A stretch of DNA of 64,000 nt, taken from positions 1 to 64,000 of the forward strand of contig NZ_LGTE01000013.1 of NCBI RefSeq assembly GCF_001263415.1, written 5' to 3'. Shown here in pieces: positions 31,433 to 47,430 of the stretch. How positions within the stretch are numbered: the stretch's first letter is position 1; each line of letters starts with the position of its first letter. The DNA comes from Thermincola ferriacetica. GTDB lineage: Bacteria; Bacillota; Thermincolia; Thermincolales; Thermincolaceae. The translations under genes and the position numbers were made by a program. The notes under the pieces were generated by a model. The model had not been told where the DNA came from. It saw only the letters and a program-made list of their open reading frames with translations, and made no database searches.

Positions 31433-32101
31433 ATGAGCAGGCTAAGGGAGGTACTGGATGCCAAGATTACAGTTAACCTTGATGCTGAAATAGATAGACA
31501 TAAAGCGCTTATCTCACTGGTACTTATAACTTTGCTGATATTTTTCGTGGGTTACGGGTTTTTACGTTATTTGTCCGGAGCACAGGACAGCTATTATAAA
31601 GAACGGGTGGAAGAACTAAGATTAAAACTGCAGTTTCACCCCGATGATCGGATATCGGCGCTGGAACTGGCTCTAAACTTATACTTGAGTGGAAATGAGG
31701 GAAAAGGCATCAATCTGGCCCAAAAAATTTATAAAGAGCAACCTGATGACCCCAATGCCATGTTTTACCTTGGTGTTATGTTGTCTGACAAGGGGGCTTA
31801 TGCAGAATCGACAAAGTTGCTGGAAAAACTGAGTTATAAGTTTTCCGGATTCGAACCGGCTCGGGTGAACTACTTTTTAGGTATAAATTATTTACAGCTA
31901 AAAAACTATAAAGCGGCTGAACGGCGTTTGCAAAAATCTGTAAGTATTGATGGGAGTTATCCGGTTGCTTACTATAATTTGGGTTTGGCTCGTGAGAAAC
32001 TGGGTAAAGTGCAACAGGCTTTGGATGCCTACCATAAAGCTCTAAAGTTAAATGGAAATTACCCTGAGGCAAAGGAAGCAATAGATCGTTTAACCAATTG
32101 A
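31433..32101 (+). CDS. Membrane-anchored TPR protein at the head of the cytochrome module
   Basis: From ATG 31433 (GGAGTGAC upstream) it has 222 residues: a short cytoplasmic head, one membrane helix (about 25-45), and at least three tetratricopeptide repeats (about 65-215), of which the last, with PVAYYNLGLAREKLGKVQQALDAY, is classical. The TPR part would face outside the membrane. TPR proteins scaffold multiprotein complexes and cytochrome maturation proteins (CcmH/NrfG-like) also carry TPRs, so it may assist assembly of the cytochromes. It precedes the first NHL gene by 27 bases. Confidence 0.8.
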   Translation: MSRLREVLDAKITVNLDAEIDRHKALISLVLITLLIFFVGYGFLRYLSGAQDSYYKERVEELRLKLQFHPDDRISALELALNLYLSGNEGKGINLAQKIYKEQPDDPNAMFYLGVMLSDKGAYAESTKLLEKLSYKFSGFEPARVNYFLGINYLQLKNYKAAERRLQKSVSIDGSYPVAYYNLGLAREKLGKVQQALDAYHKALKLNGNYPEAKEAIDRLTN

Positions 32102-32128
32102 GATGCAGTACAGATTCAGGTGATTAAT

Positions 32129-33097
32129 TTGTCTGAACGAAAAAAAGTTACAATTAACTTAAGAACTTATCTGGCTTTATTGACTGTTATAGTGATTATT
32201 ACTGCCGCGCTTTTTACATATCTCTTTTATAATCGCCGTAGTACCCTGCCTGCAATTTCTGTAGGACCAATACCCGGCAATTTTAATTTTGTCTATAACA
32301 TCTATGGTTCAAAGGACAGAAAACTGCTTCGCCCTATGAGTGCGTTTTTTGAGCATAACTCCCAAAAGATATATGTTGCCAATACTGAGGGTCATTCCAT
32401 AGATGTGTTTGATAATAAGGGAAAATACCTGTATTCATTTGGCGGTTTTGGTAGCATACCGGGGAAGCTTTCGTATCCTTACGGTGTTGCCAGGCTTTCC
32501 GACGGCAACATTGTGGTAACAGAGGCGGGAAACCGCCGGGTGCAGAAGTTTTCGCCCCAAGGGGACTTTTTGGGTTTTATTGTACCGACTGATAATGCTG
32601 TGGGGCTGGATAAGCCTGGACCAGTGCGTGTTGATGCAAGGGGTAATATTTATATAGGTGATTTATCGGGCAACAAAGTTATTGTTTTAGATGCGACGGG
32701 AAAGCTGATCAGGACAGTTGGGAATGTACAATACCCCCATGGAATAGCTCTTGATGAGAAGAATAACCGATTATATGTAGCCAGCGCCGGGACCGGAAAT
32801 ATAAAGGTATTTCCATTAACCGAGAACAAAAAAGAAGATAACAATGCGCCTGAATTTTCCGGATTGGGTTTAGTCAGGGGGATAGATGTGGACGAGCACG
32901 GAAACCTTTATGTGGTAGACAGTATTGCAGGTATGGTGAGGACCTTTGATTTTAACGGCAAACCAGGGTTGTCATTTGGGGGGAGCGGTAATGACGATGG
33001 CAGTATGTTGTACCCTAACGGAATAGATGTCGGTGAAGACGGCAGAGTATATGTTGCTGATTGGGGGAACAACAGGATTGTTGTTTGGGGTAATTAA
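32129..33097 (+). CDS. Membrane-anchored NHL-repeat beta-propeller protein 1
   Basis: From TTG 32129 (AGGTGA upstream) it has 322 residues: an N-terminal anchor helix (about 11-32) and a six-bladed NHL-type propeller outside the membrane. Repeats show the pattern of VANTEGHSIDVFDNKGKYL, TEAGNRRVQKFSPQGDFL and VADWGNNRIVVW. NHL propellers bind proteins or small ligands and show no catalytic residues. It lies 27 bp after the TPR gene and 20 bp before the first multihaem cytochrome. The pairing NHL then cytochrome is repeated three times in this block. Confidence 0.85.
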   Translation: MSERKKVTINLRTYLALLTVIVIITAALFTYLFYNRRSTLPAISVGPIPGNFNFVYNIYGSKDRKLLRPMSAFFEHNSQKIYVANTEGHSIDVFDNKGKYLYSFGGFGSIPGKLSYPYGVARLSDGNIVVTEAGNRRVQKFSPQGDFLGFIVPTDNAVGLDKPGPVRVDARGNIYIGDLSGNKVIVLDATGKLIRTVGNVQYPHGIALDEKNNRLYVASAGTGNIKVFPLTENKKEDNNAPEFSGLGLVRGIDVDEHGNLYVVDSIAGMVRTFDFNGKPGLSFGGSGNDDGSMLYPNGIDVGEDGRVYVADWGNNRIVVWGN

Positions 33098-33117
33098 ATC
33101 TAAAGTGGGTCGGTATT

Positions 33118-34446
33118 ATGCTTGGGAGCACGGAGCAAAACGTAAATTTAAGCAAAACTCCAGTAAAAGGGATAAAAATAGACTTGCTGAAGGCAGTTCT
33201 ATCGGTTGCCGGATTGCTCTTTGGAATTTTTGGCATGATTGGCCTGAGTATACACAGTGCATATGCTGGTGCAGATTCGCCGGAGGCCTATGTGCGATAT
33301 GAAAACAATGGTTCTTTTGTAGCCATTACCGTCTACTGGGATGATACGGGCGGTGGGTCCTCAATTTCATGGGCGAACGATGTGACTGTCAGCGGGACGG
33401 CCCTGAACTGGCAGACCGGACTGACATTAAGGGGACAGGGGACAGCCGCTGCCTCTGCCACGCTTAGTAACGGGGAAAAGTATAAGAACTATTATTTTAA
33501 ATTAACTAAAGGTGGCAAGTCTTCCATCATCCGGGCTTTTCCCGTTGATTTCGATGCAAGCGCCGGCCCCCGTTACCAAAATGATTATGCGCACGGGAAT
33601 TATCAACCTGGAACGGCCATGTGCGCAGCCTGCCATGTCACTCACGCCGGGTTAAAGGCATATCTGTTAACACAAGCCACCTATTATGAACTTTGCCTTT
33701 TCTGTCACGGCACGGCAGCCACACAAAGCAAATATGATGTGCAGTCAGGAAAGGTAAAAACTGCAGACGGTTGGAAAGATTCTTTGGCCGGGCCCATCGG
33801 AACCGATTATGGCACATCCAAGCATAATGTCGATGACCGGTCCAATGTAGACACGACCGTGTACGGCAGTGCGCCCGGAAAAATCCTGACTTTTACATGC
33901 CTATCATGTCATAAAGCACATGGCGGTACAAATGATAATTATCGCTTGCTGCGCGATGTCATCTACCCATCCAACGATAAGTTTATAGCTACTACTGTCA
34001 GTTATACGGCATATGCTGTAGTGAAGGATCAGACTGTCGGAGAAGAGGTTTATATGGTGTCGGGGAATACGGAATTTTGTACTGCCTGCCACCTGGATTA
34101 TGATGACGGCAATGCAAAAGAGCGGGGCGGAACTTATTCCATGTATTACCGGCACCCGGTGACGGTTGGCAGTAAAGTTTACAGTGTTTACAGTACCTCC
34201 CCCCCAAAAAACCTTTATCCTAAACCGGGGGATAAACTTCCCCTGCAAGCCAGTGCCTCCAGCGAGAGCATTGGCGCAGATAAACGAACTGCAGTAGTTT
34301 GCAGTACCTGCCATTATGCACACGGTACATACAAACAGTTCAACGTGGGTTATCCCAGACCGGGCAGCACAAGGGAATGGGTGACCAATCAGAAAATGCT
34401 GCGATTGGATAATTATGCGGTTTGTGAATCCTGCCACAAAAAATAG
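33118..34446 (+). CDS. Six-haem c-type cytochrome (MHC1)
   Basis: The 442-residue protein begins with a basic head and a hydrophobic segment (about 25-48), ending in SAYAG, consistent with a signal peptide or anchor. A beta-rich domain (about 55-160) precedes six CXXCH haem sites: C169-H173, C193-H197, C261-H265, C321-H325, C395-H399 and C436-H440. The last is CESCHKK, two residues from the C-terminus. The final motifs CSTCHYAHG and CESCHKK recur in the second cytochrome of the block, so both share a six-haem module. An extracytoplasmic electron carrier is inferred. The ribosome site is weak. Confidence 0.92.
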   Translation: MLGSTEQNVNLSKTPVKGIKIDLLKAVLSVAGLLFGIFGMIGLSIHSAYAGADSPEAYVRYENNGSFVAITVYWDDTGGGSSISWANDVTVSGTALNWQTGLTLRGQGTAAASATLSNGEKYKNYYFKLTKGGKSSIIRAFPVDFDASAGPRYQNDYAHGNYQPGTAMCAACHVTHAGLKAYLLTQATYYELCLFCHGTAATQSKYDVQSGKVKTADGWKDSLAGPIGTDYGTSKHNVDDRSNVDTTVYGSAPGKILTFTCLSCHKAHGGTNDNYRLLRDVIYPSNDKFIATTVSYTAYAVVKDQTVGEEVYMVSGNTEFCTACHLDYDDGNAKERGGTYSMYYRHPVTVGSKVYSVYSTSPPKNLYPKPGDKLPLQASASSESIGADKRTAVVCSTCHYAHGTYKQFNVGYPRPGSTREWVTNQKMLRLDNYAVCESCHKK

Positions 34447-34526
34447 GCGTTGTGGAATTTTCACTCTTTGCCGGGCTGAAAAGAAAATGGAGGAGAGAAC
34501 GGGTTGCAGCAGGGCAGGTGATAAAG

Positions 34527-35468
34527 ATGAAGGTCAAACATTTGTTGCTTATAATACTGGTATTATTGATTGTTGCGTTTTTGGGCTTTGCTTACCTGTT
34601 TTACAGGGAGCAGCAGGATAACCTGAAGTTTCAGTCGGTGGCTGTAAACCAGGAGAATAAAATAATCTATTATGGCCCACAGGAGGACCCCTTTTCGTGG
34701 CCGGTGGGAATCGCAGTTCATAAAGGCCAAATTTATATAGCCGATGCTAACCGGCACAGGATCAGGATTTTTACACCTGAGTGGCGTCTGGTCAAAAATA
34801 TCGGACATTATGGAAAGAAAAAAGGGGAACTGGGCTATCCCGTAGGGATTGCTGTAAATTCTGAAGGAGAAATATTTGTATCAGAAGTTGTTAATAACCG
34901 AATTCAGGTATTTTCACCGGAGGGCGCTTTCAAATCATTTTTCCCGCAAAGGAAAGTAGATATCAAGAGCCCAACGGCTATTGCTATAGATAAGAGTGAT
35001 AATGTGCTGGTCTTTGACCGGGGAGATCACTTTATCAAGGTCTTCGACCGGACCGGAAAACTGCTTTTCAAATTCGGCGGCCCGGGCAGCAGTCCGGGTC
35101 AACTTAAGTTTGCCATGGGGATTGCTGTTTTGCCCAATGGGAATATTTGCGTTTCGGATTCCGGTAACCGGCGCATACAATTTTTTGACAAGCAAGGCAA
35201 GTTCCTGGCTCAGTTCGCAGGTGGAACGGATGGCCTTAACGGGTTTGCCTTACCAAGGGGCATAGCCGCCATAAATAATGAAAAGGTAGCGGTTGTAGAT
35301 GCCCTTGCACGGCGTGTATTAGAAATAAGCCGTAAAAAAGATGCCTGGGAATCAAAAATTTTAGGAAAGGACTTTGTAGTACCTGATGGGGCGTTTTATG
35401 CCGATGGCAGATTATATGTTGCCGACCGCGGCGATAACAGTGTTGCTGTAATTGGGAGAGTCAGATAG
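34527..35468 (+). CDS. Membrane-anchored NHL-repeat beta-propeller protein 2
   Basis: ATG 34527, with CAGGTGATA upstream, gives 313 residues; an in-frame GTG at 34452 lacks a good site. One membrane helix (about 5-25) is followed by an NHL propeller: IADANRHRIRIFTPEWRLV, VSEVVNNRIQVFSPEGAF, VFDRGDHFIKVFDRTGKL, VSDSGNRRIQFFDKQGKF and a closing VADRGDNSVAVIG. It is a clear paralog of NHL1, with the same size and topology, and lies between MHC1 and MHC2. Confidence 0.85.
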   Translation: MKVKHLLLIILVLLIVAFLGFAYLFYREQQDNLKFQSVAVNQENKIIYYGPQEDPFSWPVGIAVHKGQIYIADANRHRIRIFTPEWRLVKNIGHYGKKKGELGYPVGIAVNSEGEIFVSEVVNNRIQVFSPEGAFKSFFPQRKVDIKSPTAIAIDKSDNVLVFDRGDHFIKVFDRTGKLLFKFGGPGSSPGQLKFAMGIAVLPNGNICVSDSGNRRIQFFDKQGKFLAQFAGGTDGLNGFALPRGIAAINNEKVAVVDALARRVLEISRKKDAWESKILGKDFVVPDGAFYADGRLYVADRGDNSVAVIGRVR

Positions 35469-35488
35469 ACTGGCAAGGCGGGATACTT

Positions 35489-38400
35489 ATGAGAATAACG
35501 GTAACGACAACCGGGAAAAAATTAAACTACCGCAAGTTTGGCAAGCGTATTGGATTATTGGCCTTAGTTATCGTCACTGCCGTTGCTGCCTTTTTCTATT
35601 TCAACAGCAGCACCGTAGCTGTAACATCGAAGCCAACAGTATATATTGTAGATGTAGATTACGCTGCTAATTCTTCCGGCGACCGTATGAGAAGCTACCT
35701 TACCAGTCAGGGATATACTGTTAACTGGGTGAATGCAACTACTACTTTACCTTCTCATGCAGAGGCTAATGGCTATGATGTCATTATCTTTAGCACAGGC
35801 GATTTAGGTACAACTAGTTTGAACGATACAGATTTGCAGTGGGTTTATGACCAGTTGAACGACCCGGCCAACAATCACAGGGTTATTGTGGAGGGTGATG
35901 CTCTGCCCTCGGAAATAAATGGCAGTGCTAACTCCGCAACATTTCGTGCCGGTATTTTACATGCTACTGCCATTGGATCACTTCAGACCAATTCAACCTA
36001 TACTTTTAACAGACTGAACAGTACTCATTATGTGGTTTCAGGCGGCGGTGCCGGAGGCACGGGAATTAACATTTCTGGTACCAACCCAACTTATTCTAAT
36101 TTTACAACTAATGATTTCAGACCTATTACGGAAGATGCTAACAGTACACCCCTTTACAAATATTCTACAACCACAACGCAGCCATATACCGTTCTGTCCG
36201 CCTGGGAGGGAACCAACAGGGCTTCAAGGTCTGTTGTCATGAGCTTTCTTTGGTATAACGGCACCCAGGGAATCACCACCCAGTCATGGCGTGAAGGTTT
36301 GCTCAAAAATTCCGTGGACTGGGTCGGCGAGTTTATGGAGGCGTCTTTTACATCGATGGCGCCTGCGAATGTCAACCCCGGTACAACGGGGGTACAAATG
36401 GGTCGCTTGTTTTTACAGAACAATATTAGCGGGGAAAACACGACCCTGACAGGTTTCAGCGTGCAGCAGACGGGAACGGCGACCAAAGACAGCAATGTAA
36501 CTACCGTGAAAATATACGCTGACGCCAATAATGATGGAACTATTGATACCCCGTCCACTCCTTTGGCAACGGCCAATTTTTCCGGTGGTACTGCTACCTT
36601 CAGCGGCCTTAATTTTACCGTGGATTCAACAGGGAAATCTATAATCATAACCTATGATGTTGCTGCTGGGGCCGAACAGACCAAGAGTCTGCGGTTAAAG
36701 GTACTTACCAATACATTTACAAACCAGGAAGGATCTTTGATCAAGACAATAGGTACCTTTGAATCCAATGCCACCCTTATCAACGATATTACTCCTCCTT
36801 CCGTACCCCAGGGAGTCTATACTACCAATCTGGGAACGGGAACCGGTCTAAAAATCAGTTGGAGCCCCAATACTGAACCAGACCTGTCCGGCTATAAAAT
36901 TTATAGAGACACTTCCCCTACAGGAAGTTTCAATACCCTGGTGGGGAGCGTACCTGCCGGGACTACAAATATTACCGATAGTGGGCTTACGGAGTTTACC
37001 CGTTATTATTATAAAGTTACTGCTTATGATACCAGCAGCAACGAATCTGATAAAGCCAGTTCCACGGCTGTAGTCGGTATACCGAACAGACCGCCGGCTA
37101 CTCCGGCGGGTTTAAATGTAACAGATCCTGCCGTTGGCCGGACCCTGATAGTTTCCTGGAGCGCTGTTACGGACGAACCGCTTGATCCTTTCAACGGCAA
37201 TACTCCGGATTTAGCGGGATATAACCTTTATGTTGCCGGCGATCCGGCCGGGCCTTACGGAAAAGTTAATGCTACTCCGATTACTGATACTACATACACC
37301 CATATAGGTTTAAAGGATGGAAACACCTATTATTATAAGGTAGCTGCCGTGGACCGGTATGGGGCGGAGTCTGTTTTATCGGCAGCAGTTAGCGGTACCC
37401 CATCGGATAGCACACCGCCGCAGATAACAAGTGTATATCCGGCGGAAGGCCAGGATTTGGTGCCGCGGAACATAATTGTTAAAGTAACTTTTGATGATCC
37501 CCTGGACCCGGCTTCAGTCAATTCGGCAGTTTTAAGGATTGTCGATCAAAATAACCTGCCCGTTCCGGGCACAGTTTCTTATGATGCCATTAACGGGCAG
37601 ATTAGGTTTACTTTTGATTCCGTACTTCCGGCAGCCGGTTCATTCAAGGCAATTCTTGACGGAACTGCGCCTGACGGAGTTAAAAATGCCGCCGGTCTGT
37701 ATCTTGGTTTTGATAAGGAATGGACATTTGGCACTTTAATTAACCCGCATGCTAATTTTACAACAAATACAACATTGTGCGGTTATTGTCATTCGGCCCA
37801 TTCAGCGACAGGCGTAAATATTATCCGGGCGCCGAAGATTATTGATTTGTGCCTTTTATGCCACGATGGTACGGGTAGCAGTTACGATGTTAAAGCAGGC
37901 ATCTATTTTAACGGGGATGTACCAACTCCTTTGTTATCGGGCGGGTATGACCTGGCTATGGGCAGCACATCTACCCACTTTACCGATTTGGCCAACTCCG
38001 TATTCGGCGGTTCGGCTGACCCGATGACCGTTGACTGCAACAACTGCCATGAACCGCACGGTACATCTAATTACCGCAACTTACGGACGACCGTGAACGG
38101 CCGGCAGGTTACCGTTACCGGTGTTGTTTACGGTCCGGCTTATGCCGTCAAAACAACTTCCGGTCGGGAAGTGGCCACTTACGTGTATGGCTTTAACGAT
38201 TTTTGCGGCGCCTGTCACTTTGATTACCTTGTCTACAACTCAGAAAATACAGCCGACAAGGTAATCAACTGGCGCCACAGGGTAGGCGTAGGTATGACAG
38301 GCGGGTCGCCGGGAGGGGATTTTGTGGTCAGTTACCCGGCGCCGGGGCTTTATACCACGTTGCCTACCGAAGGCGCGCCTACAGGAGCGAATTTGACCAA

Positions 38401-38845
38401 TTATGAAATTTTAGACGGCGGGTCCCTGGGACCGGCTACCTATAATTATATTGTGACAGCCAGGAATGCAGTCGGGGAATCGGTTTACGGCAGCATATTA
38501 CAAGTAACAAACGGTGCAGCCGGGCAAAAAATCAAGATTTTCTGGGAGCCTATTACCAATGCATACAAATACAGAATATACCGGTATGTTGGGCCATTAG
38601 ATGTGAAAAAAGCTGATGTCAGCAAGTTTAGCTTCCTGGCCGAAGTAGGGGATGCCCCCACCAGTTTCGTTGATGATGGCAGTTATACACCCGATGTGGC
38701 CGTACATCCGCCTACTACCTCCAATGCAAAAATAAACTGCCTTACCTGTCATTACTCCCATGGAACAACGGCTGTAGCAGACGGACCTACCCGGTTAAGG
38801 AGGCTGGATTACAATGGAGTCTGTGAGGATTGCCATAAAAAATAA
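35489..38845 (+). CDS. Six-haem cytochrome with GATase-like, FN3 and Ig-like domains (MHC2)
   Basis: This 1118-residue protein is built from an N-terminal anchor (about 21-40), a ~270-residue Rossmann-like module (VYIVDVDYAANSSG...DVIIFSTGDLG; ends in WREGLLKNSVDWVGE), a ~150-residue beta domain, two fibronectin type III repeats (about 430-630), a Big_5-type Ig domain (about 640-745), and six haem sites: C764, C788, C850, C906, C1084 and C1112. About 170 residues separate haem 4 from haem 5 and contain another FN3-like insertion. The last motif CEDCHKK ends the protein, as in MHC1. Wall-spanning electron transfer is inferred. Confidence 0.92.
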   Translation: MRITVTTTGKKLNYRKFGKRIGLLALVIVTAVAAFFYFNSSTVAVTSKPTVYIVDVDYAANSSGDRMRSYLTSQGYTVNWVNATTTLPSHAEANGYDVIIFSTGDLGTTSLNDTDLQWVYDQLNDPANNHRVIVEGDALPSEINGSANSATFRAGILHATAIGSLQTNSTYTFNRLNSTHYVVSGGGAGGTGINISGTNPTYSNFTTNDFRPITEDANSTPLYKYSTTTTQPYTVLSAWEGTNRASRSVVMSFLWYNGTQGITTQSWREGLLKNSVDWVGEFMEASFTSMAPANVNPGTTGVQMGRLFLQNNISGENTTLTGFSVQQTGTATKDSNVTTVKIYADANNDGTIDTPSTPLATANFSGGTATFSGLNFTVDSTGKSIIITYDVAAGAEQTKSLRLKVLTNTFTNQEGSLIKTIGTFESNATLINDITPPSVPQGVYTTNLGTGTGLKISWSPNTEPDLSGYKIYRDTSPTGSFNTLVGSVPAGTTNITDSGLTEFTRYYYKVTAYDTSSNESDKASSTAVVGIPNRPPATPAGLNVTDPAVGRTLIVSWSAVTDEPLDPFNGNTPDLAGYNLYVAGDPAGPYGKVNATPITDTTYTHIGLKDGNTYYYKVAAVDRYGAESVLSAAVSGTPSDSTPPQITSVYPAEGQDLVPRNIIVKVTFDDPLDPASVNSAVLRIVDQNNLPVPGTVSYDAINGQIRFTFDSVLPAAGSFKAILDGTAPDGVKNAAGLYLGFDKEWTFGTLINPHANFTTNTTLCGYCHSAHSATGVNIIRAPKIIDLCLLCHDGTGSSYDVKAGIYFNGDVPTPLLSGGYDLAMGSTSTHFTDLANSVFGGSADPMTVDCNNCHEPHGTSNYRNLRTTVNGRQVTVTGVVYGPAYAVKTTSGREVATYVYGFNDFCGACHFDYLVYNSENTADKVINWRHRVGVGMTGGSPGGDFVVSYPAPGLYTTLPTEGAPTGANLTNYEILDGGSLGPATYNYIVTARNAVGESVYGSILQVTNGAAGQKIKIFWEPITNAYKYRIYRYVGPLDVKKADVSKFSFLAEVGDAPTSFVDDGSYTPDVAVHPPTTSNAKINCLTCHYSHGTTAVADGPTRLRRLDYNGVCEDCHKK

Positions 38846-38852
38846 GGCATAT

Positions 38853-39776
38853 ATGACAAGAAATTTCCTGTTTATCCTGACTGTCATGTTGCTGTCATTT
38901 CTTTTTACTATTGCTTACTGGGCTTATTCCAGCCATATCGCCAGGGGAGCGCGGCTATCCACGGCCAAGGTGGTAAGCACCTCGGGCAAATATCGCCTGA
39001 ACCGGCCGATGGGGATAACGGTAGACAAGGAGGGCAGGATATTTGTCGCCGATAGCGGCAACAACCGGGTTGTTGTATATAAGTTGGGGAGCTGGTTCAA
39101 AAAGATAATCGGTGGCCCTGACGGGAAAATGAAAACCCCGACTTCTGTGGCTTTATATAAAAACAGGCTTTATGTGGGAAGTTACGGGACCGGTGAAATA
39201 CAGGTATACGACAAATCCGGCGAGTTGAAAGATTCTCTGCCGCACCAAAAAGACAGATTGAACCTGCCCGATATCAGAACGCTGGCCTTGACCGTTGATT
39301 CGCAGGGCAACCTTTATGCCAGTGATGCCAAGAGACAGCAAATCGCTGTTTTCGACCAGGAAGGGAATTTAAAGCTGATTTTTGGCAGACCCGGCTATTT
39401 TCCCGGAGAGCTGAGCTATGTTAACGGCCTGGCAGTGGATGAAGAAAACCGGCGCATTATAGCCTTGGATTCTAATAATTTACGATTGCTGTATTTTAAT
39501 TTTGAAGGTAAGTTTCTTGATTACCTGCAACTGGACAAGATTGCGAAAGAGTTGTTCGTCGCGCCCAGGGGCTTAGCTTATGACCCCGAAAAAAAAGCGA
39601 TTTACATAGCTGATACCCTGTCCGATAATGTGGTTATTTTGAGCGAGCAGGGGAAGATTTTGGATAAATCAGGGAAAATAGGCTTGTCCTATCCTCATGG
39701 TCTTTTCCTGGGGCCGGATAAGTTTCTTTATATTACCAATAGGGAAAACTCTGATATTTACTTGCTGAATTCATAG
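38853..39776 (+). CDS. Membrane-anchored NHL-repeat beta-propeller protein 3
   Basis: The start is ATG 38853; an in-frame ATG at 38814 lies inside the end of MHC2 and would prepend a basic segment. It has 307 residues: anchor helix (about 5-25), then NHL blades such as VADSGNNRVVVYKLG, VGSYGTGEIQVYDKSGEL, ASDAKRQQIAVFDQEGNL and IADTLSDNVVILSEQGKIL. It is the third paralog of NHL1 and NHL2. It precedes the 15-haem cytochrome by 17 bases. The ribosome site is weak, so coupling to upstream translation is possible. Confidence 0.82.
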   Translation: MTRNFLFILTVMLLSFLFTIAYWAYSSHIARGARLSTAKVVSTSGKYRLNRPMGITVDKEGRIFVADSGNNRVVVYKLGSWFKKIIGGPDGKMKTPTSVALYKNRLYVGSYGTGEIQVYDKSGELKDSLPHQKDRLNLPDIRTLALTVDSQGNLYASDAKRQQIAVFDQEGNLKLIFGRPGYFPGELSYVNGLAVDEENRRIIALDSNNLRLLYFNFEGKFLDYLQLDKIAKELFVAPRGLAYDPEKKAIYIADTLSDNVVILSEQGKILDKSGKIGLSYPHGLFLGPDKFLYITNRENSDIYLLNS

Positions 39777-39793
39777 TAAAGGAGGAAGCTGCT

Positions 39794-42700
39794 ATGGCCA
39801 TGGTAACAATTACCCCAAATCGGGTCGGAAAAAAGAGAATCAGATATGGCATTAAAGCTACAGTGATTGTTCTAGCTGTTATTTTGGCTGTTTTTGGGGT
39901 AGTTTTCTCCTTTTTCTATGGCGAAAGCCAGGAAGTGAGGGCCGGTGTGACTGCTTCCAAAATACTGATTATTTCCAATGATGATACCTATTTACCGAGC
40001 AGTTACACCAAAGGGACGTCGGCAACGAACATGCAAAGCTTTTTGCAGGGACAGGGTTTTGTTGTTGATGTACACAGTGAAAAACTGAACGGGGCAGTAA
40101 ACGCAAACTTTGTCACTATTGCTGATAATTATGACCTGGTAATTTTTACTCAGGGTGTCGGTTACAGGTCCACGTCGAACAACGCTCCCGGTCTGGATGG
40201 AAACGATATAGCATTTTTAAAGGAATATCTGAACCTGACCAATACGGTACCCGGTACAAGCAAAGCGAACCTGATTATTGAGGGTGAAGACATACTATAT
40301 GATATGGGTCGGTCCGGTACATCAACAGACCAAAGGGATATTCTCGAAATCAACACATCCAGTTCCCGCGGCGACCGGGGCAGGATCACAGAGCTGCGGG
40401 TTTTGGATACCAACCATCCGGTCAACCAAGGGTTGGCCTCCTCAGCAACAACCAGTTATCAGACCAACTGGCAGGATTCCCTGGTGGCCACTACCGGGGC
40501 CAAAATAATCACCAACAGTATTATAGGCGGTAATACTTACGGCGCTATTAATACTTATGACGATGGAAAGGGAAACCGCCGGGTTTTTATGCCTTTTGCC
40601 TGGTATGCCAACAATAACAACCGGATTAATGACCAAACATGGCGTGAGATGTTATTGTTAAATGCCGTGAAATGGGTCGGGGAAAGAAAGGTGACTGTGA
40701 CCAGTACAAATTTGGCCCCGGCGGACGTAATGCCGGGAGCTACCCAGGAGATGCTGAAGGTAACCCTTACCGCCGCCTGGGGAGATCCGGGAATCAGTGG
40801 TTTAACTATCAATGAAACGGGTTCGGCTGTGGCGGCCAGCGCTATTGCCAAGGTCATGGTTTATGATGATGCCAATAATAACGGGGTAATAGATACAGGG
40901 GAACAAAAACTAGGTGAGACAACAACCTGGACCGGCGAAAGTGCTACTGTGAATTTTTCCTCTCCTCTTGCTGTTGCTGACGGCACAAGTAAAAACCTGA
41001 TCGTGGCTTATCAATTAAACAGTGGCAACGTGGGTACTACTGTCGGAGCAAGCCTGGCTGACAGTAATGCAATTATCTTATACGCGCAGGATATACTGGC
41101 TAAAACTTACGGTACGTTTCCCCAGAGTTCCGGCAATACGTTAATTACCAGCGCCGGCACAGCGCAGATTATCTCTCCTTCCAACAATGCAACAATACAC
41201 GGGAGTTACAATGTTATAGGTGTAACTTCCGGTGAATATTACCTGGAGTATTCGCCAGGATACAACAGCGCCGGGCCGTGGACCCAGATTAATTATGGCG
41301 CGGCTGCTGTCAATCACGGCAGCGTGGGTACGTGGAACACGACCGGTGTTACTGACGGAGCCTATACTTTAAGGCTTAGGGTAACTACAGGTACAGAAAC
41401 AACGGTAAATGTAACGGTAGACAATACAGCTCCGACTGTAACTTCCGGTCCTTCCGTTTCTGTTGGCAGCACCACCGCTACGGTGACATGGACAACTGAC
41501 GAATCCTCGACTTCAGAAGTCGTCTATAAACCGTTTTCCAGCGGCACATGGAGCACTATTACCAACAGCGCTTACGTATTGAACCATTCCGTTCAGTTAA
41601 CGGGTCTGAACAGTGCCACTCAGTATGATTTTTACATTAAATCTACCGATGCTACCGAAAACACTGTCACCACTCCCACCCAGAACTTTACCACCGAACA
41701 ATTGGGTGCCATAGCGACCATAACTTCACCGGCCATTGTGGGAGAGGTTATACCGCGTGTAGGCGGGATATTTGACATTACCGGTACCGCCAGAACAGAC
41801 AGGCCTGGCGGGCGTGTGCAATGGTCTGTATATTATGGGGCAGGAACCAGCAGAAATTCTGTGACAACCTGGAACCTGCTGCATAATTCCACTACGCCTG
41901 TTACTAATGGGACGCTTTATTCCTGGGACACAAATTCGCTGGCCAACGGTTCCTATGTGTTAAAACTGGTAACTGTAGACCCCGACTTGACAGGAAGCAC
42001 AGCTTCCATGGAGGCCTATGTGGAGGTAATTGTTGATAATACGCCCCCTGTTATTTCCAATGTACATGTGATAAGTGTAAGTAATATTTCTGCCGATATA
42101 GCGTGGAGCGTCAATAAAAGTACCAATGGACAGGTATCATATGGCAAATCACCGGGAGCTTATTCAAATACAGTACAGGATGATAATAATGATAACCAGG
42201 TCTTTTTATCCGGTTTAACACCGAACACAACCTATTACTTCAGGGTAACAGTAAATGATACGGCAGGGCATGTAGTGAATTCCGGTGAATATACTTTTAC
42301 CACTTCCAATGTTAATGACACCACTGTGCCGGCTACTGTATATAACTTACGGGCTACTGGGCGTACTGATACAACAGTGGACCTCGCATGGAGTGCGGCA
42401 GTCGATAACACCGGTATTTCTTCGTATAATATTTACCGCAGTATCGATGGTACCAACTTTACAAAAGTGGCAACCATATCCGGAGCCGTAACGCATTATA
42501 CCGATACGGGTTTAAATGCCAGTACTGAATACTGGTACAGGGCTACAGCCACTGACCTGGCAGGTAATGAGTCACTGCCTTCCGAATCTATCAAAGTTCC
42601 CACGGTTGCTCAGTTCCGGGTCAACCCCCATGGCTCTTACCCGAAACTGACCAATATGTGCAGCAAATGCCATACCACGCACCGGGGAAAAAAATCCATG

Positions 42701-44566
42701 CTGTTCAATGACACCCAGGAGCAGAAGGTTTGTTTCTCTTGCCATAATGGCACGGGCAGCAAATATGACATTCAGAACGAATACAATGTGGACCCGAATA
42801 ACCCGGACAAGTCACGGCATCCGCTGCCCATGAGCCATACGCAGAAAGAGTGTGCCAGTTGCCATAACCCCCATTTAAGCGACTCCGGGACACCGTCCCT
42901 GTTAGCAGCGGCACAATATGATGCCAACGGCAATCTTATTGGCTACGCCTCTTCGGGCAACCAGTTCTGTTACGCCTGCCACGGCGATGTGGAGGTCAGC
43001 AAGGTCATTTATGCCATTGGCGGGTCCCATGCACCTTTTGAGAACTCTGTACATAACGGCAGCAACTTTCCGCTGCCTGAGTCGGGCAGTAAGATAAAAT
43101 GCGTCATGTGCCATAACAACCATGCCAGCCCCTATGTCCGGCTGACCAAGGCCAAGGAGGAAGAAAACTGCTACCACTGCCATGGGGATACCGCTAATTC
43201 GGGCACTTACGGACTGACTGTAAATATTAAAAGCTTGTTCCAAAAAAGCTCTCATCATAAAGTGGAAAGCAACGGAGTAAATGATACACGCGTGGAGTGT
43301 GTAAACTGCCATAACCCCCATTATATTACCAAAACAAATATTGTATCGAACCCTTACGATACTAATGATAACTGGAACTGGAGCGTGACACCGGAAAAGA
43401 GCAAGTTCTGTATACAGTGCCATGACGGGGATGCGCCGCCTGCGAAAATGGTCAACGATACAACGGTGGTTCCCTATTCCGTCTATTTCCCGGCTTTTTC
43501 AAACCAGACCACGGCTGATTATAGCGGTCCCAACGGCTCCTGGAACAAGTCTGGCTTTACTGCCAACGGTCACTATAATGCCGGGGTACAATGTACAAAC
43601 TGTCATGACCCGCATGGTTCAGACAATTCGTGGATGCTTAAGTATCCGGAAGACCCCAACAGTACCCCCGGCAGTACCAGTGGAGTATGTTTACGGTGCC
43701 ATGGCGGAGGAGCCACACCTGCCGGCCCTGATGTGTGGACAAACGGTTTCAGCCAGTCAAACAGTCACCCCACCCTGGCGATGACCGGAAAACACAGTAA
43801 TACGGAAAACTATAGCAGCATTTCTATAGCTGATCGCCATGCCGAATGTTACGACTGCCATGACCCGCATTCAGTAAAAAATACGCCAACCGGTAATTTA
43901 GCAGGAGCCCTAAATAATGTTTCCGGGGTGACCAGGTCTGGCGGTAGCCTGGTATGGAAACAAAAAGCTACCGAGGAATGGGAAATCTGCTACAAATGCC
44001 ATTCCAGTTACTGGAATAATCTCAGTGCAGCAGGAAAAAGGGATATTGCTGCCGAATTTTACAGAACTACGGGGACTTACTCCTACCATTACGTGGAGTT
44101 GTCTAACAACCCAAACCTTGACACTACTCGGGTTAACGCTCACTTAATTAACGGATGGACTGCTACCAGTAAAATGAAATGCACAGATTGTCATGGCAGT
44201 CCCACCGGAGCAAAAGGTCCGCATGGATCTCCTTATCCAAATATTCTCAAAGGAAGTTATGATACTTCTATTAATACGAGAACTGGACTTCCCTCGGATT
44301 TTATTTGCTTCAGGTGCCACGAGGAAAACTACTATAAGACCCAACACATGAACAACAAATCCGATCATATGCAGGTATCCTGCAAAAGGTGCCATGGTAC
44401 CAGGTTCCACGGTTCTAACAGAGCGCATTTTATAGCGGTTAATGACGGCGGCGGCCCGGATGTGGACCCGGAATCTTATTTAAACAGTGGGACTTACGCA
44501 CACCCTCAATATAACAGCAAAAGCAGTTGCAGTTCCACTGTTAGTCAGTGTTCTGACCATCGATAA
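39794..44566 (+). CDS. Fifteen-haem giant cytochrome with FN3 domains (MHC3)
   Basis: At 1590 residues this is the largest protein of the window. It has an anchor or signal segment (about 20-43, ending EVRAG), a Rossmann-like module related to that in MHC2 (KILIISNDDTYLPSS; ending TWREMLLLNAVKWVGE), a beta domain, and three FN3-type repeats (about 545-635, 748-838 and 840-935). The haem part runs from residue 956 to 1534 with fifteen CXXCH sites, mostly followed by NPH or DPH motifs. No LPXTG or SLH anchor is visible; the end is Ser/Cys-rich. AAAGGAGGAAG precedes the ATG. Long-range electron transfer across the wall is inferred. Confidence 0.93.
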   Translation: MAMVTITPNRVGKKRIRYGIKATVIVLAVILAVFGVVFSFFYGESQEVRAGVTASKILIISNDDTYLPSSYTKGTSATNMQSFLQGQGFVVDVHSEKLNGAVNANFVTIADNYDLVIFTQGVGYRSTSNNAPGLDGNDIAFLKEYLNLTNTVPGTSKANLIIEGEDILYDMGRSGTSTDQRDILEINTSSSRGDRGRITELRVLDTNHPVNQGLASSATTSYQTNWQDSLVATTGAKIITNSIIGGNTYGAINTYDDGKGNRRVFMPFAWYANNNNRINDQTWREMLLLNAVKWVGERKVTVTSTNLAPADVMPGATQEMLKVTLTAAWGDPGISGLTINETGSAVAASAIAKVMVYDDANNNGVIDTGEQKLGETTTWTGESATVNFSSPLAVADGTSKNLIVAYQLNSGNVGTTVGASLADSNAIILYAQDILAKTYGTFPQSSGNTLITSAGTAQIISPSNNATIHGSYNVIGVTSGEYYLEYSPGYNSAGPWTQINYGAAAVNHGSVGTWNTTGVTDGAYTLRLRVTTGTETTVNVTVDNTAPTVTSGPSVSVGSTTATVTWTTDESSTSEVVYKPFSSGTWSTITNSAYVLNHSVQLTGLNSATQYDFYIKSTDATENTVTTPTQNFTTEQLGAIATITSPAIVGEVIPRVGGIFDITGTARTDRPGGRVQWSVYYGAGTSRNSVTTWNLLHNSTTPVTNGTLYSWDTNSLANGSYVLKLVTVDPDLTGSTASMEAYVEVIVDNTPPVISNVHVISVSNISADIAWSVNKSTNGQVSYGKSPGAYSNTVQDDNNDNQVFLSGLTPNTTYYFRVTVNDTAGHVVNSGEYTFTTSNVNDTTVPATVYNLRATGRTDTTVDLAWSAAVDNTGISSYNIYRSIDGTNFTKVATISGAVTHYTDTGLNASTEYWYRATATDLAGNESLPSESIKVPTVAQFRVNPHGSYPKLTNMCSKCHTTHRGKKSMLFNDTQEQKVCFSCHNGTGSKYDIQNEYNVDPNNPDKSRHPLPMSHTQKECASCHNPHLSDSGTPSLLAAAQYDANGNLIGYASSGNQFCYACHGDVEVSKVIYAIGGSHAPFENSVHNGSNFPLPESGSKIKCVMCHNNHASPYVRLTKAKEEENCYHCHGDTANSGTYGLTVNIKSLFQKSSHHKVESNGVNDTRVECVNCHNPHYITKTNIVSNPYDTNDNWNWSVTPEKSKFCIQCHDGDAPPAKMVNDTTVVPYSVYFPAFSNQTTADYSGPNGSWNKSGFTANGHYNAGVQCTNCHDPHGSDNSWMLKYPEDPNSTPGSTSGVCLRCHGGGATPAGPDVWTNGFSQSNSHPTLAMTGKHSNTENYSSISIADRHAECYDCHDPHSVKNTPTGNLAGALNNVSGVTRSGGSLVWKQKATEEWEICYKCHSSYWNNLSAAGKRDIAAEFYRTTGTYSYHYVELSNNPNLDTTRVNAHLINGWTATSKMKCTDCHGSPTGAKGPHGSPYPNILKGSYDTSINTRTGLPSDFICFRCHEENYYKTQHMNNKSDHMQVSCKRCHGTRFHGSNRAHFIAVNDGGGPDVDPESYLNSGTYAHPQYNSKSSCSSTVSQCSDHR

Positions 44567-44569
44567 GTT

Positions 44570-44603
44570 GGACCCTTTAACCCGTTATAGGGTTAAAGGG
44601 TCC
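44570..44603 (+). terminator. Strong intrinsic hairpin after MHC3
   Basis: GGACCCTTTAACCC pairs perfectly with GGGTTAAAGGGTCC (14 bp) around a six-base loop. The following tract (TGAAATTTTATTTAATTTTATTT) is only moderately T-rich, so termination before resB may be partial. Confidence 0.7.
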
Positions 44604-44656
44604 TGAAATTTTATTTAATTTTATTTCATGTTTATTAAGGCGGGGGGAGGGGTTAA

Positions 44657-45964
44657 GTGATTAAGAAACTGTATCAAAGTCTTTTATCTCCTTTTTTAAC
44701 TATAATTATCTTTGTGATATTGACAGTTGCCATATCTGTCGGAACTATCCTGGACTCTTCTCTTGTCAGGGTTCAAGCCCCTCGTATGAATTCCGGTCAG
44801 GTCTTTTCCAGTACATGGTTCCTGGTATTAAACATTTTTTTGTTGGCAGTTACAATGTTATGTACGGCAAGGCAATTTATCATCAGCAAAAAGAGGTGGC
44901 ATAAATACCGGAAAATTTTTAGCGCAGGCATTTCACAACAGGTGCAAAATTTACCGGGCATATTTAATTTGGCAAAAAAATACAAGTACCGAATTTGGCA
45001 ATTATCAGATGAAACCCTGGCGGGACAAAAAAACAGGATTGGGTTCTGGGGCGCCCCTTTATTTCATTTGGGTATAGTAATTTCGATGTTTGGTATTATG
45101 GTAGATATTTTTGCCGGTTTTACGGGCTACCTGATTTTGCCGCCCGGCAAAATTATTGATGACCGGCGCCATAATTACGCCATTATTGATGAGAGACCTT
45201 TGCATCCTAGCAAATATAACCGTTTTCAGCTATTACTGGATAAAGTTGAAATGAAATATGAAAAGGATGGGGTAAGCGCTTCAGGTAAGGTTAGTATAAT
45301 TAAAGACGGACAGGTGATAAGCGAGGGTATTCTTGATAGGGATTCTCAAATGAATATGGGACTGCTGTCTTTGGTTCGAGATACCTACGGATATTATGTT
45401 AAATTCAGGATTAGAGACCAAAAGAATAAAGTTATTATTGACCATCTACAGGGATTGAACACTTTAGACCACGGGACAAGTACGGAGTATTCATTCAAAA
45501 ACTTTGTTCAAAAGGGGACGCCGTACCGGTTGACCTTTAATTATTACCCCGATGTGAGGAAAAAGGAGGGAAGGTATTTTACTGCCACCTATCAAGAGAA
45601 AAACCCGGCTCTTCACCTGGTAGCCCGGTATGAAAATAAGGTAGTATATAACGGGCTGGTAAAAGCCAGACAGGAAGTAACCATGCAAAACGGGCATAAG
45701 TTCCGGTTCGTTGGAACCATACCTTATCTAATGGTACGGGTGCAGTGGATGACAGGGGCTTATATATTGGCAGGAGGATTCCTTTTGTTTTTACTGGGCC
45801 TAATCATATACTACCTGTTTCCTCCTGTGGTAATTTTTATAAAAAATACTGAAAGGGGATACCGGGTAGATTATCTGGCCTGGACAGGCAAAGAAGTTGT
45901 CAAACGGGAAGTAGCCAGTATTTCCCAAACATTGTCCGGAGAATTTAGATTTAAAGGGAGATGA
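44657..45964 (+). CDS. resB: Cytochrome c biogenesis protein ResB/CcsB
   Basis: System II cytochrome c maturation: ResB with CcsA exports haem and joins it to CXXCH motifs outside the membrane. The 435-residue protein has membrane segments at about 8-30, 50-70, 127-155 and 365-392 with a large outer domain (about 160-360). The segment APLFHLGIVISMFG carries the conserved histidine seen in ResB. It starts at GTG 44657 after a GGGGGAGGGG site. It follows the cytochrome terminator by 50 bases and is likely a dedicated maturation protein. Confidence 0.9.
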   Translation: MIKKLYQSLLSPFLTIIIFVILTVAISVGTILDSSLVRVQAPRMNSGQVFSSTWFLVLNIFLLAVTMLCTARQFIISKKRWHKYRKIFSAGISQQVQNLPGIFNLAKKYKYRIWQLSDETLAGQKNRIGFWGAPLFHLGIVISMFGIMVDIFAGFTGYLILPPGKIIDDRRHNYAIIDERPLHPSKYNRFQLLLDKVEMKYEKDGVSASGKVSIIKDGQVISEGILDRDSQMNMGLLSLVRDTYGYYVKFRIRDQKNKVIIDHLQGLNTLDHGTSTEYSFKNFVQKGTPYRLTFNYYPDVRKKEGRYFTATYQEKNPALHLVARYENKVVYNGLVKARQEVTMQNGHKFRFVGTIPYLMVRVQWMTGAYILAGGFLLFLLGLIIYYLFPPVVIFIKNTERGYRVDYLAWTGKEVVKREVASISQTLSGEFRFKGR

Positions 45965-45971
45965 TATAACC

Positions 45972-46811
45972 TTGGATGCAATAAAAGTTCAGGTAATTTT
46001 ATTCTGGGCGGCAGTTACCGTTTATGTTGCAGCTACTTGTCTCAACCTTATCGCAATAATTTTTAGAAAACCAAATCTTACCAATTTTTCTCCTTATCTG
46101 GCCGTAATTGGTTTTTTGCCTCATACAGCCGGGATAATATTGCGTTGGATGCAAACTGGGCACTTTCCTTACTGGGGGAAGTACGAAGTTTTTAACAGCT
46201 ATGCTTGGGCGTTTATATTACTGTACCTGGTATTGTTTTTGATAAAAAGGGAATTGAAGGTAACGGGAACAGTTTTGTTTCCAGTGGCCTTTTTTATGAT
46301 AGGGATTGCTTTAACAGGGTCAAAAGAAACTACTGAAATCCCGTCTACCTTTTTGACTTACTGGTTGGGGGTACATGTGGCCTTTGCCAAGCTAGCTTAC
46401 GGTTCGGGATTGATTTCGGCTTTTTTTGGAGGGTTGTACCTGTGGCGGGCCGGTAAATCCAACACTGATTCAGGCGAAGATGTGCCCGGGTGGGTACCTT
46501 CTCTGGATTTTTGTGATTTTTATACTTACCGGTTTGCTGTCTTTGCATTCATCTGTATGAGCATCATGATTGGTGCGGGAGCTGTGTGGGCCTATAAGGC
46601 CTGGGGTCGCTACTGGGGTTGGGACCCTGTAGAAACATGGTCATTGGTTAGTTGGTTTGTTTACGGCACCTTATTGCATCTCCGGGTAACTATGGGGTGG
46701 CGGGGAAAACGAGGCGCCTGGTTATCTATCATTGCTGTCTTTATAGTTCTCTTTTCGTATTTCGGCATGCCTTTAATCTATGATACGGTTCATGAACACC
46801 TAGAGCTGTAG
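45972..46811 (+). CDS. ccsA: Cytochrome c biogenesis protein CcsA/ResC
   Basis: This is the haem-handling partner of ResB. The 279-residue polytopic protein has about eight membrane helices and the tryptophan-rich haem motif WGRYWGWDPVETWSL (Trp215-Asp218 core) near the C-terminus, with conserved flanking histidines at HTAG, HVAFAK and LLHLRV. A TTG start at 45972 follows GGGAGATGA, seven bases after resB ends. Coupling to resB indicates one functional unit for the 27 haem sites upstream. Confidence 0.93.
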   Translation: MDAIKVQVILFWAAVTVYVAATCLNLIAIIFRKPNLTNFSPYLAVIGFLPHTAGIILRWMQTGHFPYWGKYEVFNSYAWAFILLYLVLFLIKRELKVTGTVLFPVAFFMIGIALTGSKETTEIPSTFLTYWLGVHVAFAKLAYGSGLISAFFGGLYLWRAGKSNTDSGEDVPGWVPSLDFCDFYTYRFAVFAFICMSIMIGAGAVWAYKAWGRYWGWDPVETWSLVSWFVYGTLLHLRVTMGWRGKRGAWLSIIAVFIVLFSYFGMPLIYDTVHEHLEL

Positions 46812-46844
46812 TTTTTCCAAAATAATAATGACTTGGTGGTAAGA

Positions 46845-47402
46845 ATGTTGGTAAGAAGGGTAATAATTATATTGAATATTTTCATAATGACATTCCTGAC
46901 AGGTGGCTGCACCGGCAAAACGGAAGAGAAGGCTCTGCAGGATGCCGTAAATAACTATAACCGCACTCTTAAGGTTGTATTGCGTACGGGAGATGTTAGC
47001 TTACTCAACAATGTAGCATTGGAGAATGAAGTTCGCCGGATGGAACTTTTCCTAACTTATATGAACGAAGAAAAAAAGGTTTTATCGGCAGAACTGGATA
47101 GCATAAAGTTTATTTCCGCACAGGTGGACAACGACCAAGGAAAGGCTGTGGCTGACGAATCGCCAAATAAAGGGAATAAACAGGCCAAACAGGCTGCAAC
47201 CGCAAAAAAGCAGCGTGCCAAAGAACCCACTGCTCAGGTGAAGACAGAAGAGATATGGACGTATGAATATCTTCACCCAGAAACGGGGGCCAAGATTGAA
47301 GGACCCTTCCTTATAAAGTACAATACCACTTATAAGCTGATAAAGCGGGATAGGTGGAAGGTTTATGAGGTGAGTTTTAAGGAACAGGTCTTAAAGAGAT
47401 AA
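46845..47402 (+). CDS. Lipoprotein of unknown function in the cytochrome block
   Basis: I do not recognise a family. From ATG 46845 (GGTGG upstream; TTG 46833 is an alternative) it has 185 residues: a hydrophobic segment and lipobox LTGGC near residue 20, a coiled-coil-like acidic part (about 25-80), a Lys/Ala/Gln-rich linker, and a C-terminal WTYEYLHPETGAKIEGPFLI stretch that resembles the NTF2/ARC6-IMS-like domains used in secreted Firmicutes proteins. It ends at a bidirectional terminator. It closes the cytochrome module, so an assembly or attachment role is possible but unproven. Confidence 0.7.
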   Translation: MLVRRVIIILNIFIMTFLTGGCTGKTEEKALQDAVNNYNRTLKVVLRTGDVSLLNNVALENEVRRMELFLTYMNEEKKVLSAELDSIKFISAQVDNDQGKAVADESPNKGNKQAKQAATAKKQRAKEPTAQVKTEEIWTYEYLHPETGAKIEGPFLIKYNTTYKLIKRDRWKVYEVSFKEQVLKR

Positions 47403-47430
47403 AAACCTCTCCGGCAGGGAGAGGTTTTTT
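47401..47430. terminator. Bidirectional terminator between the cytochrome block and yajQ
   Basis: AAAAACCTCTCC pairs with GGAGAGGTTTTT (12 bp) around a GGCAG loop; T-rich on both strands. It lies between convergent genes and would stop both. Confidence 0.88.

Follow-up and report, generated by a model that had tools for sequence, protein, structure and literature searches.

How the respiratory electrons of Gram-positive bacteria pass through the thick cell wall is an open question. In Thermincola, the multihaem cytochrome (MHC) CwcA (Tfer_0075 / TherJR_1122) has been proposed as a cell-wall nanowire cytochrome (PMC7911101); a search of the literature found nothing on how CwcA is assembled, nor did the CwcA paper yield any reference to NHL. 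OmcS, the filament cytochrome of Geobacter, has 12 histidine ligands, one of which is supplied by the neighbouring subunit (PMC6584659), and the products of the Geobacter osc genes have been put forward as proteins that fold OmcS nanowires, secrete them and give them their shape (PMC13194489, citing Shen et al. 2025). A six-bladed propeller stands beside large cytochromes and a prolyl isomerase in an operon of Desulfuromonadales and of the sulfate reducers that partner anaerobic methanotrophic archaea (PMC5539420), and in Dethiobacter alkaliphilus NHL and TPR proteins lie beside multihaem genes for extracellular electron transfer (EET), where a role in complex assembly was suggested (PMC10376724). 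NHL genes also adjoin an OmcE homologue in Geoalkalibacter (PMC12016550), and NHL or TPR proteins adjoining EET cytochromes are found again in PMC9769857. Here I describe a locus in a stretch of 64,000 nucleotides from the thermophilic, metal-respiring Gram-positive Thermincola ferriacetica (contig NZ_LGTE01000013.1, positions 1 to 64,000; the whole of this stretch is called the window), where a TPR gene is followed by three NHL-MHC pairs and by the cytochrome maturation genes ResB and CcsA. I put a probability of roughly 55% on the reading that its propeller and TPR proteins, tethered to the membrane, are devoted to assembling wall cytochromes of the OmcS type, and that the locus makes electron conductors of the wall and surface.

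The first two cytochromes of the locus carry six haem-binding CXXCH motifs each. MHC1 (33118..34446) is predicted to be secreted, and MHC2 (35489..38845) bears its haems from residue 764 onwards, behind an N-terminus made of the extracellular domains Big_5 and fn3 (Pfam). A search of the PDB with MHC1 alone returned nothing useful; the resemblance to OmcS emerged only with a profile built from the genome's eight hexahaem cores, among them those of MHC1 and MHC2. The best match of that profile was OmcS (6ef8, E=2.6e-14, 56.5 bits), the next entry being 6r2q with 34.3 bits, reached through several short stretches, and OmcE (7tfs) gave E=0.003. The region matched to OmcS covers five haems, with the haem order and four distal histidines in register. 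Exactly 12 histidines are shared by all 37 hexahaem cores compared within the class, six belonging to CXXCH and six lying elsewhere. They are residues 159, 173, 176, 197, 236, 265, 268, 325, 346, 399, 402 and 440 in MHC1, whose core has no further histidine, and in MHC2 all 12 fall within 754-1116; this number would suffice for six bis-His haems. By sequence, MHC1 is a homologue of OmcS and a paralogue of CwcA, and so is the C-terminus of MHC2. A preliminary description of this DNA had read the locus as an electron-transfer module, which holds, and had left the OmcS/CwcA type of the hexahaem partners unrecognised.

Membership of the OmcS family is no proof of filaments, and it is possible, though I lean away from it, that the hexahaems are ordinary monomeric wall cytochromes which resemble OmcS by descent, form no polymer and pass electrons by diffusion or contact; this could be combined with either an assembly or a docking role for the NHL proteins. 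MHC1 H176, one of the invariant histidines, aligns with OmcS His16, the inter-subunit ligand, which reaches haem 5 of the next subunit. The motif that holds this residue, CXXCHxxH, is common in cytochromes that do not polymerise, so the invariance of H176 is compatible with polymer formation and no proof of it, and its ligand role is not assignable from sequence. Large additional N-terminal domains on some members would also suit monomers. What speaks for polymers instead is that the invariant histidines number exactly as many as OmcS uses, and that the paralogue CwcA could not be stabilised in solution, which its authors saw as agreeing with insertion into the wall and polymer formation (PMC7911101).

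Each cytochrome of the locus has its own NHL gene directly upstream: NHL1 (32120..33097; Pfam NHL 2.1e-26) for MHC1, NHL2 (34452..35468; 6.6e-35) for MHC2, and NHL3 (38814..39776; 2.8e-24) for the large 15-haem cytochrome MHC3 (39794..44566). The TPR gene (31433..32101; Pfam TPR_2 4.4e-14) is the first of the unit; a longer open frame from 31322 exists, and the ribosome-binding site stands at 31433. All these genes, and ResB and CcsA behind them, lie on the + strand with intergenic gaps of -32 to +90 nt, the shortest being that before NHL3, which begins 32 nt before MHC2 ends, with a good ribosome-binding site that lies within MHC2. Gene order, strand, spacing and CXXCH counts of 6, 6 and 15 are all as the preliminary description gave them, and its comparison with Thermincola was apt, as the DNA belongs to that genus.

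The pairing extends well beyond this locus, as counted from NHL and MHC searches together with fetched genomic regions. In the T. ferriacetica genome 12 of 13 such NHL genes are followed immediately, on the same strand, by a multihaem gene, which is far beyond chance; the exception follows CcsA at the end of a cluster on contig C14. The ten genomes of the class hold 79 NHL genes, and once four at contig ends are set aside, 62 of the remaining 75 directly precede an MHC gene at a median gap of 35 nt, while a TPR gene comes directly before 49 of the 79. Counted from the other side, an NHL gene lies directly upstream of 42 of the 44 hexahaem genes of the class, and the single genome without a hexahaem is also without this NHL family. 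Across 300 genomes of the phylum (cut-offs E <= 1e-25 for the hexahaem and E <= 1e-50 for the NHL family), the NHL family is present in 25 of the 26 genomes that have a hexahaem vs 8 of the 274 that have none. In genomes outside the class, an MHC gene comes next after 38 of the 47 NHL genes whose neighbour is readable. A search of other phyla with the hexahaem as query found NHL directly before MHC in Acidobacteria (L087), Deferribacterales (L088), Cyclobacteriaceae (L091) and Nitrospiraceae (L092), the simple NHL-hexahaem pair being confined among these to the Acidobacteria locus. A scan of named genomes with a single hexahaem protein as query gave only ten loci, two of them close. The same alternation elsewhere in the genome, in the class and outside it rules out the locus as a unique invention. 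The preliminary description had proposed that the alternation be sought in other genomes, where it is indeed found, across the class and the phylum, and had presented its strictness as a new element; the pairing is real, but that claim was too strong, since NHL and TPR proteins or propellers beside cytochromes were already known (PMC10376724, PMC12016550, PMC5539420). In the literature searched, the one-to-one rule, the partner's identity as an OmcS-type protein and the co-variation described below all went unreported.

Could the linkage reflect nothing beyond a shared operon, with the NHL and TPR proteins doing other work at the wall, such as binding polymers or minerals or acting as enzymes? 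NHL propellers are functionally diverse and some members of this gene family are not flanked by a cytochrome gene, but a merely shared operon sits badly with the phylogenetic profile of the phylum and with pairing retained at many separate loci of one genome and in another phylum, and I regard this explanation as quite improbable. The strict pairing across the phylum names NHL and TPR as candidate assembly partners of OmcS-type cytochromes, and these candidates occur in organisms that are without the outer-membrane machinery of Geobacter.

Partners also change together. Over 42 pairs, the distance matrices of NHL and hexahaem proteins correlate with r=0.836, whereas random re-pairing inside genomes brings the value down to 0.03 (sd 0.05), and the observed correlation was reached in none of 2000 such trials. 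TPR and hexahaem proteins correlate at r=0.87, as do TPR and NHL proteins (35 sets). In 222 of 254 comparisons the closest NHL and the closest hexahaem are partners of each other, where 19% would be expected, and the NHL tree requires 14 changes of partner class vs 31.9 with shuffled labels; the NHLs with heptahaem partners form one starred group in that tree. Furthermore, the three-pair order of the window is retained in a genome of another family, on two contigs, with each NHL best matching its own positional orthologue. Identities to orthologues are 47% for NHL1 and 45% for NHL2 (both L128), and 46% for NHL3, 60% for MHC2 and 44% for MHC3 (all L138), the last of these again having 15 haems. 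NHL and cytochrome partners are thus hardly ever exchanged, and co-inheritance through linkage explains part of the co-variation.

The proteins themselves point to helpers at the membrane. A single hydrophobic stretch is found at the N-terminus of NHL1, NHL2 and NHL3, of the TPR protein and of each cytochrome; in the TPR protein it would leave the repeats outside as a membrane-anchored domain, and the NHL and TPR proteins are probably tethered at the outer face of the cell membrane. An AlphaFold2 model of NHL1 places a helix at residues 14-40 ahead of a six-bladed propeller (predicted local distance difference test score, pLDDT, 88.9), and a fold search of the PDB with this model returned NHL propellers of the TRIM type as best matches, in agreement with the membrane-anchored beta-propellers of the preliminary description. 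NHL1 and NHL3 are without cysteine and none of NHL1-3 has a haem motif, so the carriage of electrons is unlikely and a helper role is favoured.

The propeller might stay on the finished cytochrome as a docking adapter, as the preliminary description supposed, holding it to the membrane and letting membrane cytochromes feed electrons into the wall conductor. The membrane anchor on each of NHL1-3, the one-to-one pairing and the co-variation of lineages all agree with this. A 12-haem cytochrome gene very often lies directly before TPR-NHL-hexahaem, within the class and outside it (L044, L046, L095-L106 and others), and its product, a candidate electron donor to the hexahaem, is a protein that docking could bring near. 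Permanent docking by itself leaves the equally tight link to TPR unexplained, however, and the comparable propeller of Deltaproteobacteria is reported with a signal peptide and without a transmembrane helix (PMC5539420). I consider docking a live but less likely rival. The comparative evidence agrees no less well with an assembly role, which is slightly preferred because the TPR protein co-varies equally.

Under the assembly reading, the TPR and NHL proteins would receive the secreted hexahaem chain at the outer face of the membrane; the propeller would hold the chain during haem attachment and then pass the cytochrome on to stacking or placement in the wall, each NHL being dedicated to the cytochrome encoded next door. 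Across the wall, MHC1 and the C-terminal domain of MHC2 could form stacks with haem next to haem, and MHC3, with its 15 haems and extracellular domains, may be the surface terminus. The ResB-CcsA pair and a small lipoprotein would serve haem attachment, mainly that of the giant cytochrome. The products would together form cell-wall and surface conductors for metal or electrode respiration. Gene content, homology to OmcS, the set of conserved histidines, the pairing across the phylum and the co-variation of lineages are observed, whereas export, a place in the wall, the formation of filaments and a part for NHL and TPR in assembly are all to be taken as inferred.

Several points weigh against this reading. 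The literature search found no experiment on an NHL or TPR protein of such a locus, and no prolyl isomerase or osc-like channel genes were recognised among the proteins of the locus with Pfam and NCBIfam. The co-variation of lineages is also expected from joint duplication and inheritance alone. The AlphaFold2 model of MHC1 is poor (pLDDT 54) and a fold search of the PDB matched nothing, for which reason the OmcS fold of MHC1 rests on sequence, and CXXCH-rich proteins match one another partly through the motif itself. Finally, one NHL lineage, distinct and conserved, comes after CcsA and is not itself followed by a cytochrome gene (L094 at C14:11417-12343, L108, L110, L141, L142, L143, L145); the next gene encodes instead a non-cytochrome protein of about 420-490 residues that is conserved across genomes.

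A broader version of the assembly reading is more speculative, and I offer it as a tentative idea that may well be wrong: wherever bacteria without an outer membrane make OmcS-type haem filaments, TPR-NHL could be the general machinery that assembles them, specific to each cytochrome and with one set per filament type, so that Thermincola would build several different nanowires through its wall.

ResB (44657..45964; Pfam ResB 6.1e-14) and CcsA (45972..46811; Pfam Cytochrom_C_asm 2.6e-35), the haem lyase subunit, make up a System II pair for cytochrome c maturation; the WWD motif WGRYWGWDPVETW (WGRYWGWD in translation) is present in CcsA. Both proteins are divergent, and CcsA scores 168.8 bits against the NCBIfam model CcsB, below the cut-off of 187.6. 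The genome contains five ResB-CcsA pairs, each 3' of an MHC gene, with 15, 42, 58, 11 and 16 haems. Among relatives, all readable CcsA genes follow the order MHC, ResB-like, CcsA, in some cases with a lipoprotein between the last two. Loci consisting only of TPR-NHL-hexahaem (L040, L044, L046) are without ResB-CcsA, and loci consisting only of NHL, giant MHC and ResB-CcsA (L042, L045) are without TPR. The window locus therefore joins two modules that occur separately, TPR-NHL-hexahaem and NHL-giant cytochrome-ResB-CcsA. Because the maturation pair lies directly 3' of the giant gene and is absent from the TPR-NHL-hexahaem-only loci, I assign it to the giant cytochrome. The preliminary description had called the module self-contained, with its own maturation pair; the pair is there, but with five in the genome, each behind a multihaem gene, the term was overstated. 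It had also missed that the pair goes with the giant cytochrome and not with the hexahaem-NHL units.

The giant cytochrome, MHC3, matches Paired_CXXCH_1 (5.2e-39) and has fn3-like extracellular domains at its N-terminus. The same genome also encodes cytochromes with 42 haem motifs (3051 aa, L039, contig C14) and 58 haem motifs (2115 aa, L041, contig C1). After its last CXXCH, MHC3 ends in a tail with two cysteines (44399-44566), SSCSSTVSQCSDHR, for which no Pfam or NCBIfam match was seen. Other giants that adjoin ResB-CcsA have such a tail too, about 55-78 residues long, whose two cysteines lie near the end (58 haems in L041, 42 in L039 and 16 in L045, and those of L120, L121, L125, L129, L138 and L185), and the two-cysteine tail is found in 14 of 19 cytochromes with ResB or CcsA at most two genes away vs 8 of 128 others. 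It is possibly a sorting signal, a disulfide or an unusual haem site.

A perfect 14-bp stem-loop (44571..44604, + strand), read from sequence and able to fold in RNA, occupies the junction of MHC3 and ResB, and a strong stem-loop stands at the giant cytochrome/ResB junction in four of the five clusters of this genome (the locus described here, L039, L041 and L042). Its position between MHC3 and ResB means that the maturation genes may be expressed at another level than the cytochromes; the stem-loops at these junctions may lower or separate maturation-gene expression. Behind CcsA lies a gene for a small predicted lipoprotein (46833..47402, + strand), which matched no Pfam or NCBIfam family. 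I count it into the unit because its relatives sit between ResB and CcsA in sister genomes (L121, L125, L129); a terminator lies near 47401-47429, at the end of this gene. Elsewhere in the genome, besides the five CcsA genes, two more Cytochrom_C_asm proteins are encoded at G000:C3:169553-175069 by open frames 227 and 669 residues long. Their sizes would suit CcmC- and CcmF-like proteins, and a second haem-attachment system may thus be present.

Among the companions of OmcS in Geobacter, OscD is beta-propeller-like. The osc (OmcS-companion) cluster resembles the window locus in that accessory proteins are encoded beside an OmcS-type cytochrome (PMC13194489), and differs in its prolyl isomerase OscH and its channel-like OscEFG, which were not recognised among the window-locus proteins. 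The operon of PMC5539420 shares a six-bladed beta-propeller adjoining large cytochromes, but its cytochromes have 16 and 26 haems and come with an isomerase, whereas the window locus has 6, 6 and 15 haems and no isomerase recognised; the propeller of that operon is reported to be without a transmembrane helix, and no TPR-NHL-hexahaem trio is described in the part of that source consulted. The Dethiobacter clusters likewise place NHL and TPR next to EET multihaem genes, although the one-to-one pairing, the OmcS identity of the partner and the co-variation are not reported in the available part of PMC10376724.

OmcS of Geobacter sulfurreducens (PDB 6ef8/6nef) shares with the hexahaems six haems and 12 histidines for bis-His haems. 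The differences are that the host of the window is Gram-positive and without an outer membrane, that it has several paralogues per genome, that MHC2 has extra N-terminal domains, and that the hexahaems here are known from sequence. One of the closest known systems is found in the same genome. The locus L041 has the order 10-haem, 12-haem, 17-haem, TPR, NHL, 6-haem, which fits Tfer_0070 to Tfer_0075 (PMC7911101), and its hexahaem should for this reason be CwcA. Supporting the identity of the species, the nine-haem OcwA of this genome differs by three residues from the T. potens structure (PDB 6i5b), and three such differences are published for T. ferriacetica (PMC7911101). CwcA is distinct from its paralogues MHC1 and MHC2, MHC1 being 28% identical to it in the alignment, but like them CwcA is a hexahaem OmcS homologue, and it is encoded in the same TPR-NHL-hexahaem trio that opens the window locus.

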